64,000 bases of DNA from Geothrix edaphica. Lineage in GTDB: Bacteria > Acidobacteriota > Holophagae > Holophagales > Holophagaceae. A program made the translations under genes and the position numbers. The first letter of the stretch is position 1; every line of letters begins with the position of its first letter. The stretch spans positions 806,001 to 870,000 of the forward strand of contig NZ_BSDC01000001.1 of assembly GCF_030268045.1 (NCBI RefSeq), given 5' to 3'. Below, piece by piece: positions 27,527-32,354 of this stretch. The notes beneath the pieces are model-generated. The model did not search any database and was not told the DNA's origin. It saw only the letters and a list, made by a program, of their open reading frames with translations.

Positions 27527-29326
27527 ATGGCCAAGCTCGCCCCGATCCGGGCCGTCCTCCGTCCGCTGGACCTGGCCCAGCACCTCTTCGAAGTGACGCT
27601 GACACTGCCCCCGGAGGCCCTGGCCTCCGGCGCTGTCGCGGCGATGCCCGCCTGGACGCCGGGTTCGTACCTGGTGCGGGACTACGCTCGCCTCGTGGAT
27701 CGGGTGCGCCTCCTGGAGGGGCGGAAGGAACGTCCGCTGGACAAGCTCGACAAGCAGCGCTGGCAGCTGCCGCCCTCGAAGCGGGAACTCACGGTGAAGT
27801 ACCGCGTGTACGGCAACGACCTCACCGTGCGCACCAACCACCTGGACGCCAGCCACGCCCAGATCATCCCCGCCGCCACCTTCCTCTACCTGGAGGGCCA
27901 GCTGGACCGGCCCGTGGAGGTGCGCTTCGAGGGCTTCCCCGCGGACTGGAAGGTGGCCTCGGCCCTGCCGCAGGAGCAGGGCGGGTACCTGGCGAAGGAC
28001 TTCGACACGCTGGTGGATTCGCCCTTCGAGCTGGGCGCGTTCCGCACCCGCAGCTTCAGGGCCGGCGGCACAGTCTTCGAGCTGGTCTTCACAGGGCGGC
28101 ACAACGGCGACGAGGGCCGCATGGTCGAGGCCACCCGCCAGATCGTCGAGGCCGCGGGTGCCATCTTCGGCGGGTTCCCCTTCAGGCGCTACGTCTTCTT
28201 CTTCACCTTCACGCCCAAGCTGCGCGGCGGGCTGGAGCACAAAGACTGTACCAGCCTCATCGCGGACAGCCACGCCTTCGACAAGCCGGAGGGCTACTAC
28301 GCCTTGTTCCAGCTGGTGGCCCACGAGTTCTTCCATGCCTGGAACGTGAAGCGCCTCCACGACCCGGTGCTGGGCCCCTTCGACTACAGCCGGGAGAACC
28401 CCACGAAGATGCTCTGGTTCCACGAGGGGCTCACCTCGTACATGGAGCATGTGATCGTCCTGCGGGCCGGCGTGGTGCCCTGGAGCCATGCCTCTAAGGA
28501 ACTGGCCAAGTGCTGGAGCGAGCAGGTGCAGCGCCCCGGCCGTCTGGAGCAGAGCCTGGAGGAGGCCAGCTGGGACGCGTGGATCCGCTTCTACAAGCAG
28601 CACGAGTTCAGTCCCAACAGCTCCGTCAGTTACTACGACAAGGGTGAGATGGTCGCCTGGCTCATGGACGCGGCCCTCCGCGAGGGGAGCCGGGGCAGGG
28701 CCGGCCTGGCGGACCTCTTCGCGCAGCTCTGGGCGCGGCATGGCGAGGACGGACTCACTGATGCGGATGTGCGCCGGGCCTTCCGGGAGCTCTCGGGAAA
28801 AGACCCTGCGCCCTTCTGGGATGCCTACATTTCCGGGCGCGCCGAACTGGATTCCGCCCAGCTGCGCCGGGCCTTCGGCCTGGTCATGGAAGCCAAGGCG
28901 CCCTGGGAAGGCCTCTCCATCGAGGAGGCGAGTGATCCCGCGGCGCAGCGACGCGCCCGTGCGTGGACGGGTCTCGTGCTGGCCTCCAACGGGCCCGTCA
29001 TCCAGAACGTCATTCCCGGTAGCCCCGCAGCGGGAGCCGGCCTCAGCTTCGGCATGGAGATCCTCGCCGTAGAGGGGTGGCGCACCACGACCGCAGCAGA
29101 GGCCCAGCGGTGCCTGGCGGAGCCTGGGCCCGGCGGGAAGGTGGCGGTGCTGGTCGCGGATCGCGGGCGGGTCTTCCACGTGGAAGTGGCCTTGGCCGAG
29201 AATCCCGAACGCACCTACCGGCTGACGCCGGATCCCCGGGTCGGCGCCGCCCAGCGGGCGGCCTTCGCCGCCTCCTACGGCCAGCCCCATCCCGCCGCCC
29301 CGGTCAGGCGGGGCGTGCGCCGGTGA
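27527..29326 (+). CDS. M61-family metallopeptidase with PDZ domain
   Basis: A 599-residue glycyl-aminopeptidase-like enzyme. The N-terminal beta domain is followed by a gluzincin catalytic domain with the zinc motif HEFFH (266-270) and the third ligand Glu in WFHEGLTSY (near 304). GGLEHKDCTSL is another M61 block. The C-terminus (about 470-570) is a PDZ domain (GLVLASNGPVIQNVIPGSPA). No clear signal peptide is seen, so it is probably cytoplasmic like many M61 enzymes. The ATG at 27527 has GGAAGGA upstream. Its stop overlaps the glycosyltransferase GTG (GTGA). Confidence 0.94.
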   Translation: MAKLAPIRAVLRPLDLAQHLFEVTLTLPPEALASGAVAAMPAWTPGSYLVRDYARLVDRVRLLEGRKERPLDKLDKQRWQLPPSKRELTVKYRVYGNDLTVRTNHLDASHAQIIPAATFLYLEGQLDRPVEVRFEGFPADWKVASALPQEQGGYLAKDFDTLVDSPFELGAFRTRSFRAGGTVFELVFTGRHNGDEGRMVEATRQIVEAAGAIFGGFPFRRYVFFFTFTPKLRGGLEHKDCTSLIADSHAFDKPEGYYALFQLVAHEFFHAWNVKRLHDPVLGPFDYSRENPTKMLWFHEGLTSYMEHVIVLRAGVVPWSHASKELAKCWSEQVQRPGRLEQSLEEASWDAWIRFYKQHEFSPNSSVSYYDKGEMVAWLMDAALREGSRGRAGLADLFAQLWARHGEDGLTDADVRRAFRELSGKDPAPFWDAYISGRAELDSAQLRRAFGLVMEAKAPWEGLSIEEASDPAAQRRARAWTGLVLASNGPVIQNVIPGSPAAGAGLSFGMEILAVEGWRTTTAAEAQRCLAEPGPGGKVAVLVADRGRVFHVEVALAENPERTYRLTPDPRVGAAQRAAFAASYGQPHPAAPVRRGVRR

Positions 29327-29994
29327 GGATCGCCGCGATCCTCGCCGCCCACAATGAGGCGGATCGCATCGGGCCGGTGCTGGAGGGGTTGCGGCCCTTC
29401 GGCCTCCACCGCGTGCTGGTGGTGGATGACGGGTCCGCGGACCGCACCGGCGCCGTGGCCGCCGGCCACGGCGCCGAGGTGCTGCGCCTGGGGCCCGGGC
29501 AGGGCGGGGGCAAAGGTCAGGCCCTGCGGGCGGGCATCGCCCGGCTGCGCCCCGATGCCTTCGACTTCTATCTGTTCCTGGATGCCGACGGCCAGCACGA
29601 TCCGGCGGATCTCCAGCGGTTCCTGGAGCATCTCGCCGCCCATCCCAGGACCGACTTCCTCATCGGCTCCCGCTTCCTGGACCGGGCCAAGATCCCGCCC
29701 AAGCGCTGGCGCACCAATGCGCTGGGCACCTGGACGCTGGGCCGCATCGCGGGCGTGACCTGGGAGGACAGCCAGAGCGGCTTCCGCATGATCCGCAAGA
29801 AGGTGCTGGACCGGCTGGACCTCCGCTCCACAGGCTTCGCCATCGAGATGGAGATCTCGATGAAGGCCGCGGACTGGAACCTGCGCTGGGCGCACATCCC
29901 CATCCGGGCCATCTATCAGCCGGGGCCTGTGAGGAGTCATTTTCGAGGGGTGATGGATACTTGGCTGATCGCCTGGGAGTCCCTGAAGTGCTAG
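29323..29994 (+). CDS. Family 2 glycosyltransferase (polyprenyl-phosphate type)
   Basis: A 223-residue GT-A-fold transferase with no transmembrane segment. The start GTG lies inside the M61 stop (GTGA). Key elements are IAAILAAHNEADRIGPVLEG, VLVVDDGSADRT (nucleotide-sugar binding), KGQALRAG, and the DxD-type metal site FLDADGQHDPADL. DSQSGFRMIRKKVL contains the conserved acceptor-side segment. It resembles dolichyl/undecaprenyl-phosphate glycosyltransferases, with an unknown sugar. The last 34 bp of the gene are repeated exactly 109 bp downstream. Confidence 0.92.
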   Translation: MRIAAILAAHNEADRIGPVLEGLRPFGLHRVLVVDDGSADRTGAVAAGHGAEVLRLGPGQGGGKGQALRAGIARLRPDAFDFYLFLDADGQHDPADLQRFLEHLAAHPRTDFLIGSRFLDRAKIPPKRWRTNALGTWTLGRIAGVTWEDSQSGFRMIRKKVLDRLDLRSTGFAIEMEISMKAADWNLRWAHIPIRAIYQPGPVRSHFRGVMDTWLIAWESLKC

Positions 29995-30101
29995 CTGGCT
30001 TCAACCCGGTCAGGCCTTGTCACTTGACGCTGCCCCGCAGCGCCAAGCTCGGGCCCGATCCGGGTTGACTTGGCTGATCGCCTGGGAGTCCCTGAAGTGC
30101 T
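29959..30101. repeat. 34-bp perfect direct repeat, 109 bp apart
   Basis: The 34 bp at 29959-29992, which encode the C-terminal residues of the glycosyltransferase, recur without mismatch at 30068-30101. The second copy lies between that gene and the convergent protease gene. The copies bracket a 75-bp spacer that carries inverted repeats. The second copy is non-coding, since it is out of the gene's frame and after its stop. Confidence 0.95.
30001..30068. repeat. Nested inverted repeats in the spacer
   Basis: TCAACCCGG (30001-30009) pairs perfectly with CCGGGTTGA (30060-30068). Inside it, CTTGACGCTGC (30023-30033) pairs with GCAGCGCCAAG (30037-30047) across a CCC loop with one mismatch. No T-run follows, so it is not a typical intrinsic terminator; a Rho-assisted or convergent-stop role is possible. 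Confidence 0.75.
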
Positions 30102-30104
30102 GAG

Positions 30105-32147
30105 CTAGCGCGCCGCGGCGGGTGCGGCTGGGGCCTGCGTCCGCACCACCTGGATTCCGGACGCTCCGTTGACGGGAGTGATGGCCCGGAGCAGCGCCTG
30201 GATCCGGGTCTGCATCTCCTTGTCGTCCACCTTGCCCACACGGGCCAGGTAGAGGGTATACAGGTCCGGGCTCTCGGCCGGAGCGGCGCCGGGCTTGAGG
30301 AAGGCGGGATGCACCGCGGCGATCCGGCTGGCGCCGTCCTCCTCGAAGGTGCGCTGGGTGTAGGGATGCCGCTGCTTCGCGATCTCCTTCCAGTGCTTCT
30401 GGTCCCCCTCCGGCACGCCCGGCGTGGGATGGATGTGCTTGAGCACGACGAAGTAGTTGTCCTCCTCGTCCTCCGAGATGCTCACGCGGCGCAGGTCCCA
30501 GGCGACGTCCTCTCCTCGTCGGGAAAAGCCCATGTTCAGGATGAGGAAGGCCTTGGGCGACAGGTCCACGTGGGAGGCATCCAGGTCCAGCTTCGCCCAG
30601 AGGGCCTGGAGATGGAGGGAGCGGCCCTCCTTGAAGGTGAAGGCCATGTCCTTGAGCGCGGAAGGGACCTGTTCGCGGTGCTGAAGATACTCCACCCAGT
30701 CGCTGAGCTTGCCGCCGTAGGGCACGTAGGTGTAGTCCAGGAACTTCGACAGGTCGTAGAGCCAGGGCATCAGGGACGAGGAATCCACGAACTTGACGGC
30801 CATCACCACGCCCGAGGGCACGACGGTCGTGTAGGTGAGAACCGTGCCGTCGTCGTAGGGCGTGAACCAGATGGCCTGCTGCCAGGGGCGGCCGAAGCGG
30901 TCGATGTGGGGCTGGATCTGGTAGGGCTGGCCGAACGAGGTCACGCGGATGTCCTGCCCGCCGACGGTGCGCGTGACCTGGGCGCCCTTGAGCAGGAGGT
31001 CCATGGTGAGCTTCGGCTTCGCGAGGAGGTCGGCGAGGCTGACCCCGTCCGGGCGGTGGATCCTGAAGAGGTACACGCCGTTCGCCTGGGCGTAGCGGAG
31101 GCGGCCGTTCTTGGGGATCTCGTTGCTCTTGTACTCCAGGCCGGAGATGCTCCAGGTCTTGGTGGTCTTGTCCCGGAAGATGACCTCGGGATCCGTGCTG
31201 GTCGGGATGTCGCCGATGGCGGCCTCACTGGCCTCGCCCCCCGGAAACAACTCCGCGCCGAGGCTGCTGAAGAGATTGTCCATGGACTGGGTGTAGAACG
31301 CGGATTCCCGGGCCGCGAGCTCCTTCCGGAGGTCGGCGTAGCGGCGGGGCAGGGGCAGGTTGAACGTCCGGTCGAGGGCCTTGGAGTTTTCTGGGAACAG
31401 CGCGAAGGAGAAGCTGATCTTGTTGTCGAAGGCCGCGGTGTTGGCTTTCACGGCCTTCAGCTCGTCGGTGGGGAGCGAATAGCAGATGTTGTCCTTCTTC
31501 CCTTGCACCAGGCCCACCACGCGCCCCTGCGGGTCCACCAGCGGGCCGCCGGAGTTGCCGGGGTTCACGCCGGCGCTGCTCTTCAGGATGCTCCAGGCGC
31601 CGCGCATGGGCTCGGGCAGCGTGCCGATCACTTCGCCGGGGCGGATCACGAGGCCCTCGCCATAGGCATTGCCCACGGTGAACACAGTCTCGTTGACCTG
31701 GAATCCGGGTCGGAGGTCCAACCACCGGTCGAAGGTCCGCCCCTTGACCGTGAACCTGATCACGTCCCGCTGCTCGTCGAGCGCGAGGATCTGGTCCACC
31801 TCCCAGACGTTCTGCTTGGCGTCCCGGATGAAGCAGGTTTGGTAGCCCATGGAGGCATGGACCGGCTTGAAGACGTGGTGCGCGGTGACCAGCTCGGTCT
31901 TCGAGACGGCGAAGGCAGTGCCGATGGAGATGTAGCGGTCATTGCGGATGTTGAAAGGCACCAGGTCCCAGGGCAGCTCCTTCTCGTAGGAGACGGGATC
32001 CTTGTCCGGGTCGGGACGGAGGACCACCACCTCGAAGCTGGCTTCGGTGACCCGCGCCTTGACGGCCGGAGCCAGGGCCGTCTCCTGGGCCCGGAGGATG
32101 GGCCCGAGCAGAAGCGCGGGGAGGAGCAGGGCGGCGAGGAGTCTCAT
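30105..32147 (-). CDS. Secreted trypsin-like serine protease with long uncharacterised C-terminus
   Basis: A 680-residue exported protein. The signal peptide (MRLLAALLLPALLLGPILRA) starts at the ATG at 32147; 19 further in-frame codons upstream do not fit a signal. The catalytic domain covers about 30-230, with the His in LVTAHHVF (90-91), Asp128 in DEQRDVIRF and Ser199 in GVNPGNSGGPLVD, an HtrA-like S1C pattern. No PDZ domain is evident. The remaining 450 or so residues match nothing I recognise and probably form a beta-rich substrate or partner domain. It is monocistronic and convergent with the glycosyltransferase gene. Confidence 0.86.
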   Translation of the reverse strand: MRLLAALLLPALLLGPILRAQETALAPAVKARVTEASFEVVVLRPDPDKDPVSYEKELPWDLVPFNIRNDRYISIGTAFAVSKTELVTAHHVFKPVHASMGYQTCFIRDAKQNVWEVDQILALDEQRDVIRFTVKGRTFDRWLDLRPGFQVNETVFTVGNAYGEGLVIRPGEVIGTLPEPMRGAWSILKSSAGVNPGNSGGPLVDPQGRVVGLVQGKKDNICYSLPTDELKAVKANTAAFDNKISFSFALFPENSKALDRTFNLPLPRRYADLRKELAARESAFYTQSMDNLFSSLGAELFPGGEASEAAIGDIPTSTDPEVIFRDKTTKTWSISGLEYKSNEIPKNGRLRYAQANGVYLFRIHRPDGVSLADLLAKPKLTMDLLLKGAQVTRTVGGQDIRVTSFGQPYQIQPHIDRFGRPWQQAIWFTPYDDGTVLTYTTVVPSGVVMAVKFVDSSSLMPWLYDLSKFLDYTYVPYGGKLSDWVEYLQHREQVPSALKDMAFTFKEGRSLHLQALWAKLDLDASHVDLSPKAFLILNMGFSRRGEDVAWDLRRVSISEDEEDNYFVVLKHIHPTPGVPEGDQKHWKEIAKQRHPYTQRTFEEDGASRIAAVHPAFLKPGAAPAESPDLYTLYLARVGKVDDKEMQTRIQALLRAITPVNGASGIQVVRTQAPAAPAAAR

Positions 32148-32354
32148 GGGATATCCGTGAATGATGGAGGGGCAAACCTTCATCCTGCCTATGGGGCGGG
32201 ACACCGACGCTTACTGGTCTTGAAGGTCCCCAGTGTATCGCAGATGAGGTCCGCCGGATTCGCGGTACCTTGGGCGCATGGACAGGCCCGATTCTGGATT
32301 TCCGCAACCATCCCTCCCGCCGGGGGAAGTTCCCGTTCCTCTCCGGGTGATCCT

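Follow-up and report, generated by a model that had tools for sequence, protein, structure and literature searches.

A gene end repeated behind a hairpin

The window, by which we mean the whole 64-kb stretch of DNA that was analysed, belongs to a genome of 3.16 Mb in 6 contigs that is 99% complete (G000). A gene for a family 2 glycosyltransferase (PF00535) occupies positions 29326 to 29994 of its forward strand; the start codon is approximate, with the frame open from 29077, and the TAG stop codon lies at 29992-29994. The functional end of this gene, comprising the last 11 codons (TWLIAWESLKC) and the T of the stop codon (29959-29992; copy 1, or X), recurs outside the open reading frame at 30068-30101 of the same strand (copy 2, or X′). 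Direct comparison found the copies identical over all 34 nt at an offset of 109 nt, just as an earlier note on this DNA had described them, and the pair is the sole direct repeat of at least 24 nt in the window (18-nt exact seed, no more than 400 bp apart). Copy 2 abuts the 3′ edge of a hairpin, and the GA that follows it gives an in-frame TGA. The stop codon of a convergent trypsin-like peptidase ORF (30105-32204, reverse strand), a neighbor that lies outside the element, is found 3 nt past copy 2.

The spacer between the copies measures 75 nt (29993-30067), and nearly all of it is taken up by the hairpin element on the forward strand (H; 29995-30067), which begins with CTGGCTTCAAC and ends in GGGTTG. 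Its outer stem of 9 bp (30001-30068) pairs TCAACCCGG (30001-30009) with CCGGGTTGA (30060-30068) and carries a bulged T at 30059; the last base of this inverted repeat (30068) is also where copy 2 begins. The inner stem-loop, CTTGACGCTGC-CCC-GCAGCGCCAAG (30023-30047), has 11-nt arms (30023-30033 and 30037-30047) around a 3-nt loop. Both the spacer and its 9-bp outer inverted repeat are therefore where the earlier note had placed them, and its 11-bp inner hairpin has arms of the right length with one A-C mismatch between them. The spacer has a folding energy of −38.4 kcal/mol; 200 shuffled versions average −26.9 (z = −3.7), and none of them folds as well.

Two ready identifications of the hairpin were rejected. 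There is no terminator-like T run after the GC hairpin at the window locus, which discards an intrinsic terminator, and an Rfam RNA family is discarded by a search of the window that returned no match at the gathering score and two chance-level matches by E value. The search for further spacer copies that the earlier note had proposed gave a divided answer: the sequence of 29940-30130 matches nowhere else in the window's genome at an E value of ≤0.001, but a hairpin of a different group (G000:C2:80462) scores with the covariance model R1 introduced below (E = 4.5e-4).

The glycosyltransferase locus across Geothrix

The end of the glycosyltransferase gene was read in 45 of the 47 Geothrix genomes (none from G026 and G039) and in 3 outgroups. 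Nineteen of the 45 Geothrix genomes, the window's among them, carry the hairpin at this locus, five hold remnants recognized by eye (G005, G013, G015, G022, and G024), and 21 have nothing. The hairpin is intact and accompanied by a second copy on one contig in 18 of the 19 carriers; in the remaining one, G008 (G. fermentans), the locus is split over two contigs. The draft assembly of G008 breaks exactly within the hairpin (at the start of C6 and the end of C16), which points to a longer tandem array at this position.

Carriers are scattered on the gene-body tree (47 rows, G030 being too short for inclusion) and are present in both deep clades. At least 8 changes are required by the starred branches, and shuffling the carrier label gave a value as low in 116 of 500 trials, which means no clustering beyond chance. 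The hairpin has thus been present at this gene for a long time or been re-acquired often, and losses have been frequent. The earlier note had read the repeat as a recent insertion or slippage event and had taken conservation of both copies in distant relatives as speaking against this. Such conservation is what the strain comparison gave, with hairpin and second copy in 19 of 45 genomes and in both deep clades, so that a recent event is unsupported as such, and a private recent slippage in the window's genome is rejected because the locus is conserved within the genus. The note's further argument, that the lack of mismatches implies a recent origin or conversion, holds for the last insertion or homogenization in the window, which was recent, but not for the hairpin at the locus, which is old. 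An identical gene-end repeat need not be the product of private recent slippage.

Several genomes illustrate how the locus changes. G017 has no hairpin, sits beside the filled G025 and G006, and continues after its single gene end with the DNA that follows copy 2 in filled genomes. Either an empty site or a precise loss would give this picture, a loss being indistinguishable from a site that was never filled. G013 and G015, which have lost the hairpin, retain a diverged copy 2. G034, G020, G001, and G007 hold part of a second hairpin or a third gene end, and these second-unit remnants show that the unit of gene end and hairpin has stood in tandem more than once. In G035 and G030 (L010 and L011), copy 2 runs into the next gene (rnhB, named by reading), which may start at a GTG from the copied gene end.

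Divergence and possible homogenization of the two copies

Over 32 nt, X and X′ show 0 differences in four of the 18 carriers compared and 1 to 8 nt in the other 14. X′ tends to track the X of its own genome, with distances that sum to 58, whereas shuffling gives 120.7 on average and never as low a value in 10,000 trials (relatedness not removed). The tracking holds in G020 and G001, whose last codons (KFSLRC) are unlike those of other carriers. The X of the same genome is nearest or tied nearest to X′ in 10 of 18 genomes and strictly nearest in 5. The eight genomes in which it is not the nearest are G012, G030, G035, and G014; G003, G007, and G041, which look decayed; and G025, which is one nucleotide short. 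In the first four, the copies differ by synonymous changes alone (4 to 7 nt), and X′ lies 1 to 2 nt from the working end of another genome.

Differences that are only synonymous also occur in some genomes with 1 to 2 changes, and the pattern is one of single genomes. Pooled over all carriers, the differences (36 synonymous and 22 other nucleotides) are what is expected for one constrained and one free copy, with no codon excess over that expectation (P = 0.49 for all 18 and 0.10 without the frameshifted G009). A subset of 10 genomes gave a P value of 2e-5 and is not relied on, as it was picked after seeing the data. The genomes are heterogeneous in their codon changes, as judged from 0 of 20,000 shuffles for the full set, a P value of 0.00035 without G009, and a P value of 0.0008 when G030 is also left out.

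Much of this could be explained by one old tandem duplication of gene tail and hairpin behind the glycosyltransferase gene, homogenized by hairpin-stimulated slippage or unequal crossing-over, with no mobile element involved. The tracking of X′ with its own gene, the partial extra units in four genomes, the divergence of copy 2 where the hairpin is lost, and the agreement of the pooled codon counts all argue for such a history. The pairs with synonymous changes alone in G012, G014, G030, and G035 and the heterogeneity among genomes argue against it. As a complete account, it is further weakened by hairpins of similar form that have an edge copy at rimO, glmS, and elsewhere (described below) and by the differing affinity of the two rimO tails. 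We therefore consider an old tandem duplication possible but, on balance, unlikely as the sole explanation.

A hairpin family of Geothrix and close relatives

Covariance model R1 was built from 23 hairpins; a search of 77 genomes of the family with it located hairpins at a number of sites in Geothrix and in two sister genera. Most of these hairpins keep the CAAC...GTTG edges and the bulged base, and there are few copies per genome. Across the phylum, 12 of 396 genomes contain an R1 match at an E value of ≤1e-5 under strict filters, namely, 11 Geothrix and one of a sister genus. An exact core pattern was found in 10 stretches among 84,980 species (one genome each), all labeled Geothrix, Holophagaceae, or Acidobacteria and all assigned to the Holophagaceae from their title or contig, and viral contigs gave 0 matches to the 25-position core pattern. 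The hairpin is so far confined to Geothrix and its close relatives. Named cultured species that carry the core pattern are Geothrix fermentans (DSM 14018), G. paludis (SG195), and G. fuzhouensis (SG12), which makes the insertion step testable.

Copies at the hairpin edge at other loci

Four Geothrix genomes have a similar hairpin behind rimO; a sister genus has such hairpins behind glmS, and further sites lie in two sister genera. We considered 23 further hits, which are those fetched from an R1 list that also had unlisted matches; hits on the mirror strand, those in G115, and weaker ones such as G005 C152, G027 C8, G019 C1:2476684, and G039 C253 are not among them, nor are the glycosyltransferase locus, the array at glmS, and the first hairpin of G103 C125 (which has no upstream flank). 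At 8 of the 23, upstream sequence is copied exactly at the hairpin 3′ edge, with an offset of −3 to +1 from the end of the model. These edge-positive hits are the four rimO loci (G044, G041, G007, and G015), G103 C125, G103 C172, G049 C6, and G049 C7.

The upstream copy starts 98 to 107 nt before the hairpin at six of the eight, 60 nt before it at one, and 163 or 250 nt before it at G049 C7, which is situated in locally repetitive DNA. Over all loci, this distance ranges from 36 to ∼107 nt (G049 C7 apart), and identity mostly covers just the first 22 to 57 nt. The hairpin ends in (G/A)TTGA within a few bases of the copy in six edge-positive hits and in CGCG in G103 C172 and G049 C6, the two with weak R1 scores (E = 0.12 and 0.003, respectively) and no GTTG end. 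The duplicated piece at G103 C172 reads as the start of a gene that points the other way, and the edge rule is for this reason not bound to gene 3′ ends or to the direction of transcription.

The glmS gene of G049 (named by reading) has the same edge-copy anatomy, also by reading. Two contigs terminate in a tandem hairpin array, which glmS precedes on one and a second glmS end follows on the other, and we infer that the two contigs meet at the array.

The edge copy is absent at 15 of the 23 hits, nine of which belong to another hairpin group (L116, L117, L120 to L123, L125, L126, and L128) and six of which are others. The nine lie behind a gene ending in SWMAML* and do not follow the edge rule; an 11-nt edge match 308 to 376 nt upstream of L123 and L128 was taken as chance. 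Also counted as negative were L124 (G023:C75), which has a 70-nt near-identical flanking repeat 111 nt from a weak hairpin hit, and L113, whose sole repeat, of 14 nt, is not at the edge.

Two tails of different affinity at rimO

The rimO gene, named from its UPF0004, radical SAM, and TRAM domains, was matched in 45 of 47 Geothrix genomes; 30 ends were read, and the 4 carriers were compared with the 26 others. Its tail is variable across the genus. The front tails (X) share identities of 0.86 to 0.96 among carriers G041, G044, and G007, of 0.74 to 0.78 with G015, and of at most 0.69 with the 26 others. The closest noncarrier to X for three of the four carriers is G038, itself remnant-like. The rear tails (X′) share only 0.42 to 0.71 between carriers and resemble hairpin-free native ends in two cases (0.96 for G041 and G024 and 0.86 for G044 and G013); no close native-end match was found among the 26 other genomes for G007 (0.72) and G015 (0.60). 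Because X is alike among carriers and X′ unlike between them, it is clear that the front tail goes together with the hairpin. The rear tail is likely the native one, and G024 without the hairpin and G041 with it would represent the empty and the filled state, an emptied site looking the same as one never filled.

The rear tail could itself be imported, since G024 and G013 rank 10th of 26 by identity of the rimO body to their respective carriers, and the genome whose rimO body comes closest (G000, at 0.95 to that of G041) ends in a dissimilar tail (0.55). On the glycosyltransferase tree, however, G024 and G041 form a pair. The first 36 to 57 nt behind the rimO hairpin repeat the variants of the same genome.

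These tails raise the possibility of gene-end swapping, in which a mobile unit of host gene tail and hairpin would home into the corresponding site of that gene in other species. The fixed 3′ edge of the hairpin would serve on one side and homology on the other, so that the gene would gain a new C terminus and its native end would be pushed behind the hairpin. If this were true, protein termini, such as that of RimO, would have been diversified across the genus. Some integrative elements that target gene 3′ ends restore the gene in a comparable way, with one tail carried in front and the other displaced behind; in contrast, the hairpin loci read have neither integrase nor cargo, and similar hairpins occur at unrelated genes. 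We regard gene-end swapping as a doubtful but attractive extension of the rimO result.

A candidate mobile element of the Holophagaceae

The reading to which we give roughly even credence is that the spacer is one of a set of small (∼73- to 80-nt) palindromic nonautonomous mobile elements of the Holophagaceae, nearest to the YPAL type, whose insertions leave long host duplications that later undergo exchange or homogenization. The edge duplication at several genes, the hairpin-free sites, and the rimO tails of different affinity are observed directly. The suggestion of the earlier note that the repeat is the duplicated target of a small nonautonomous element fits the similar hairpins at other genes and the hairpin-free sites.

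Under this proposal, the element would settle near a gene end (or start), with one gene-end copy standing in front, which would keep the ORF intact, and another directly behind the hairpin 3′ edge. That edge would be the joined end of the inserting DNA, while the other side may be explained by extended duplication of the target or by joining through homology. Later homologous exchange and turnover of tandem units would carry the gene tail and hairpin from one lineage to another and maintain the similarity of the copies. A search covering integron integrases and RVT_1 identified no mobilizing enzyme. Small palindromic repeats are usually viewed as intergenic; here, one is tied to gene-end duplication and, at rimO, to apparent replacement.

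The nearest kind found is YPAL/RU-2 of Yersinia, which is described as an abundant nonautonomous element of ∼168 bp with inverted repeats that is not A+T-rich, has variable target duplications of 3 to 26 bp and both filled and empty sites, and might affect the RNA stability of upstream transcripts (PMC2229807). Compared with it by anatomy alone, the Holophagaceae hairpin is alike in its palindromic copies dispersed at nonhomologous loci and in its empty and filled sites, but it differs in its size (73 to 80 nt), its few copies, its duplication anatomy of 34 to ∼107 nt, and the tail carried at rimO. The exact copy of 34 nt in the window and the upstream copies 36 to ∼107 nt away fall outside the range of 3 to 26 bp. 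MITEs and RUP- and Correia-type repeats (PMC2229807 and PMC10969869) are likewise short, structured, and nonautonomous with direct repeats at their ends, but the Geothrix element has no TA ends, its duplication is long and variable, and the search for integron integrases and RVT_1 revealed no parent transposase. No publication describing the Holophagaceae hairpin element was found in the literature searched, the scope of which excluded most subscription journals.

Stem covariation and a possible RNA role

Scored on a structure that was derived from them, the 18 hairpin sequences of the glycosyltransferase locus are 97.9% paired and give 15 double-change cells, compared with 4.2 on average after shuffling (0 of 500 as high). 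One stem pair shows all four Watson-Crick types, and slid partners score lower; a covariation measure that counts further pair types does not exceed chance (385 of 500). The covariation shows a maintained palindrome. By itself, it is no proof that the hairpin works as RNA, since self-correction of palindromes at replication can likewise yield covariation.

These compensatory stem changes, together with the position of the hairpin directly after the stop codon, are consistent with a conserved 3′-untranslated RNA structure selected for mRNA stability or processing, to which the repeat would be incidental. Against such a role stand the results of the Rfam search, the missing T run, and the 21 of 45 genomes that have no hairpin at the same gene, and it leaves the gene-end copies unexplained. 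We consider it improbable.

Integron integrases and reverse transcriptases

Integron integrases score above the curated cutoff in 24 of the 37 Geothrix genomes searched, repeat arrays adjoin two of them, and the hairpin shares with attC sites an imperfect DNA fold, AAC...GTT edges, and a bulged base. It could accordingly be an integron-like single-strand site, with gene tail and hairpin forming a cassette moved by IntI. The attC R-box consensus is RYYYAAC/GTTRRRY. The edges of H read TCAAC/GTTGA, whereas the array repeats beside Geothrix integrases are 135 to 144 nt long with CCTAAC/GTTAGG edges, and the one compared has no 8-mer in common with a typical H. Identity with these attC-type repeats was rejected on length, edges, and sequence. 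R1 found no match with an E value of <0.1 in eight integrase loci, all of its matches there being at an E value of ≥0.11. Integrase presence is not linked to the hairpin (11 of 17 carriers and 13 of 20 others, the latter including remnant genomes and one genome unread at the glycosyltransferase locus), and the first 36 to 57 nt of X and X′ at rimO are alike within a genome, contrary to the insertion of a whole cassette. An integron-like origin is thus hard to credit.

Least probable is retrohoming-like copying, in which an RNA ending at the hairpin would be reverse-transcribed from priming at the gene, with the hairpin edge fixed and the other side set by homology: rimO does have one fixed edge and one apparently homology-dependent side, and RVT_1 genes are found in 7 of 17 carriers versus 4 of 20 others, but the piece at G103 C172 is, from reading alone, an oppositely oriented gene start, and a reverse transcriptase of the retrohoming or diversity-generating kind is unsupported as the driver, with no RVT_1 match at an E value of ≤1e-5 in the window's genome (99% complete) or in carriers G001, G007, G008, G010, and G025 (some of them drafts).

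Other repeats beside hairpins and integrases

Several repeats of other kinds were noted at the loci read. The SWMAML* hairpin group of Geothrix, whose copy in the window's genome is G000:C2:80462, overlaps the stop codon of its gene, and some members partly repeat their own arm. Just upstream of two hairpin copies in G103 (L112 and L113) lies another repeat (gggcgatgtggggcaagga...gccc), and the flanking repeat of L124 includes a terminator-like inverted repeat. The small sister-genus genome G115 (L130 to L149) holds many copies of an element of ∼230 bp with inverted ends (tatagtgaaacaactttaaa...) that matches R1 via the core alone; the 32 R1 matches in this genome were left uncounted because most of the 21 read belong to this separate element. 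The integron integrases (L216 to L223; e.g., G000:C3:557586-558482) include several near contig ends, and the repeats at their side number 10 of ∼135 nt in G025 (61 to 100% alike) and four of ∼144 nt in G013.
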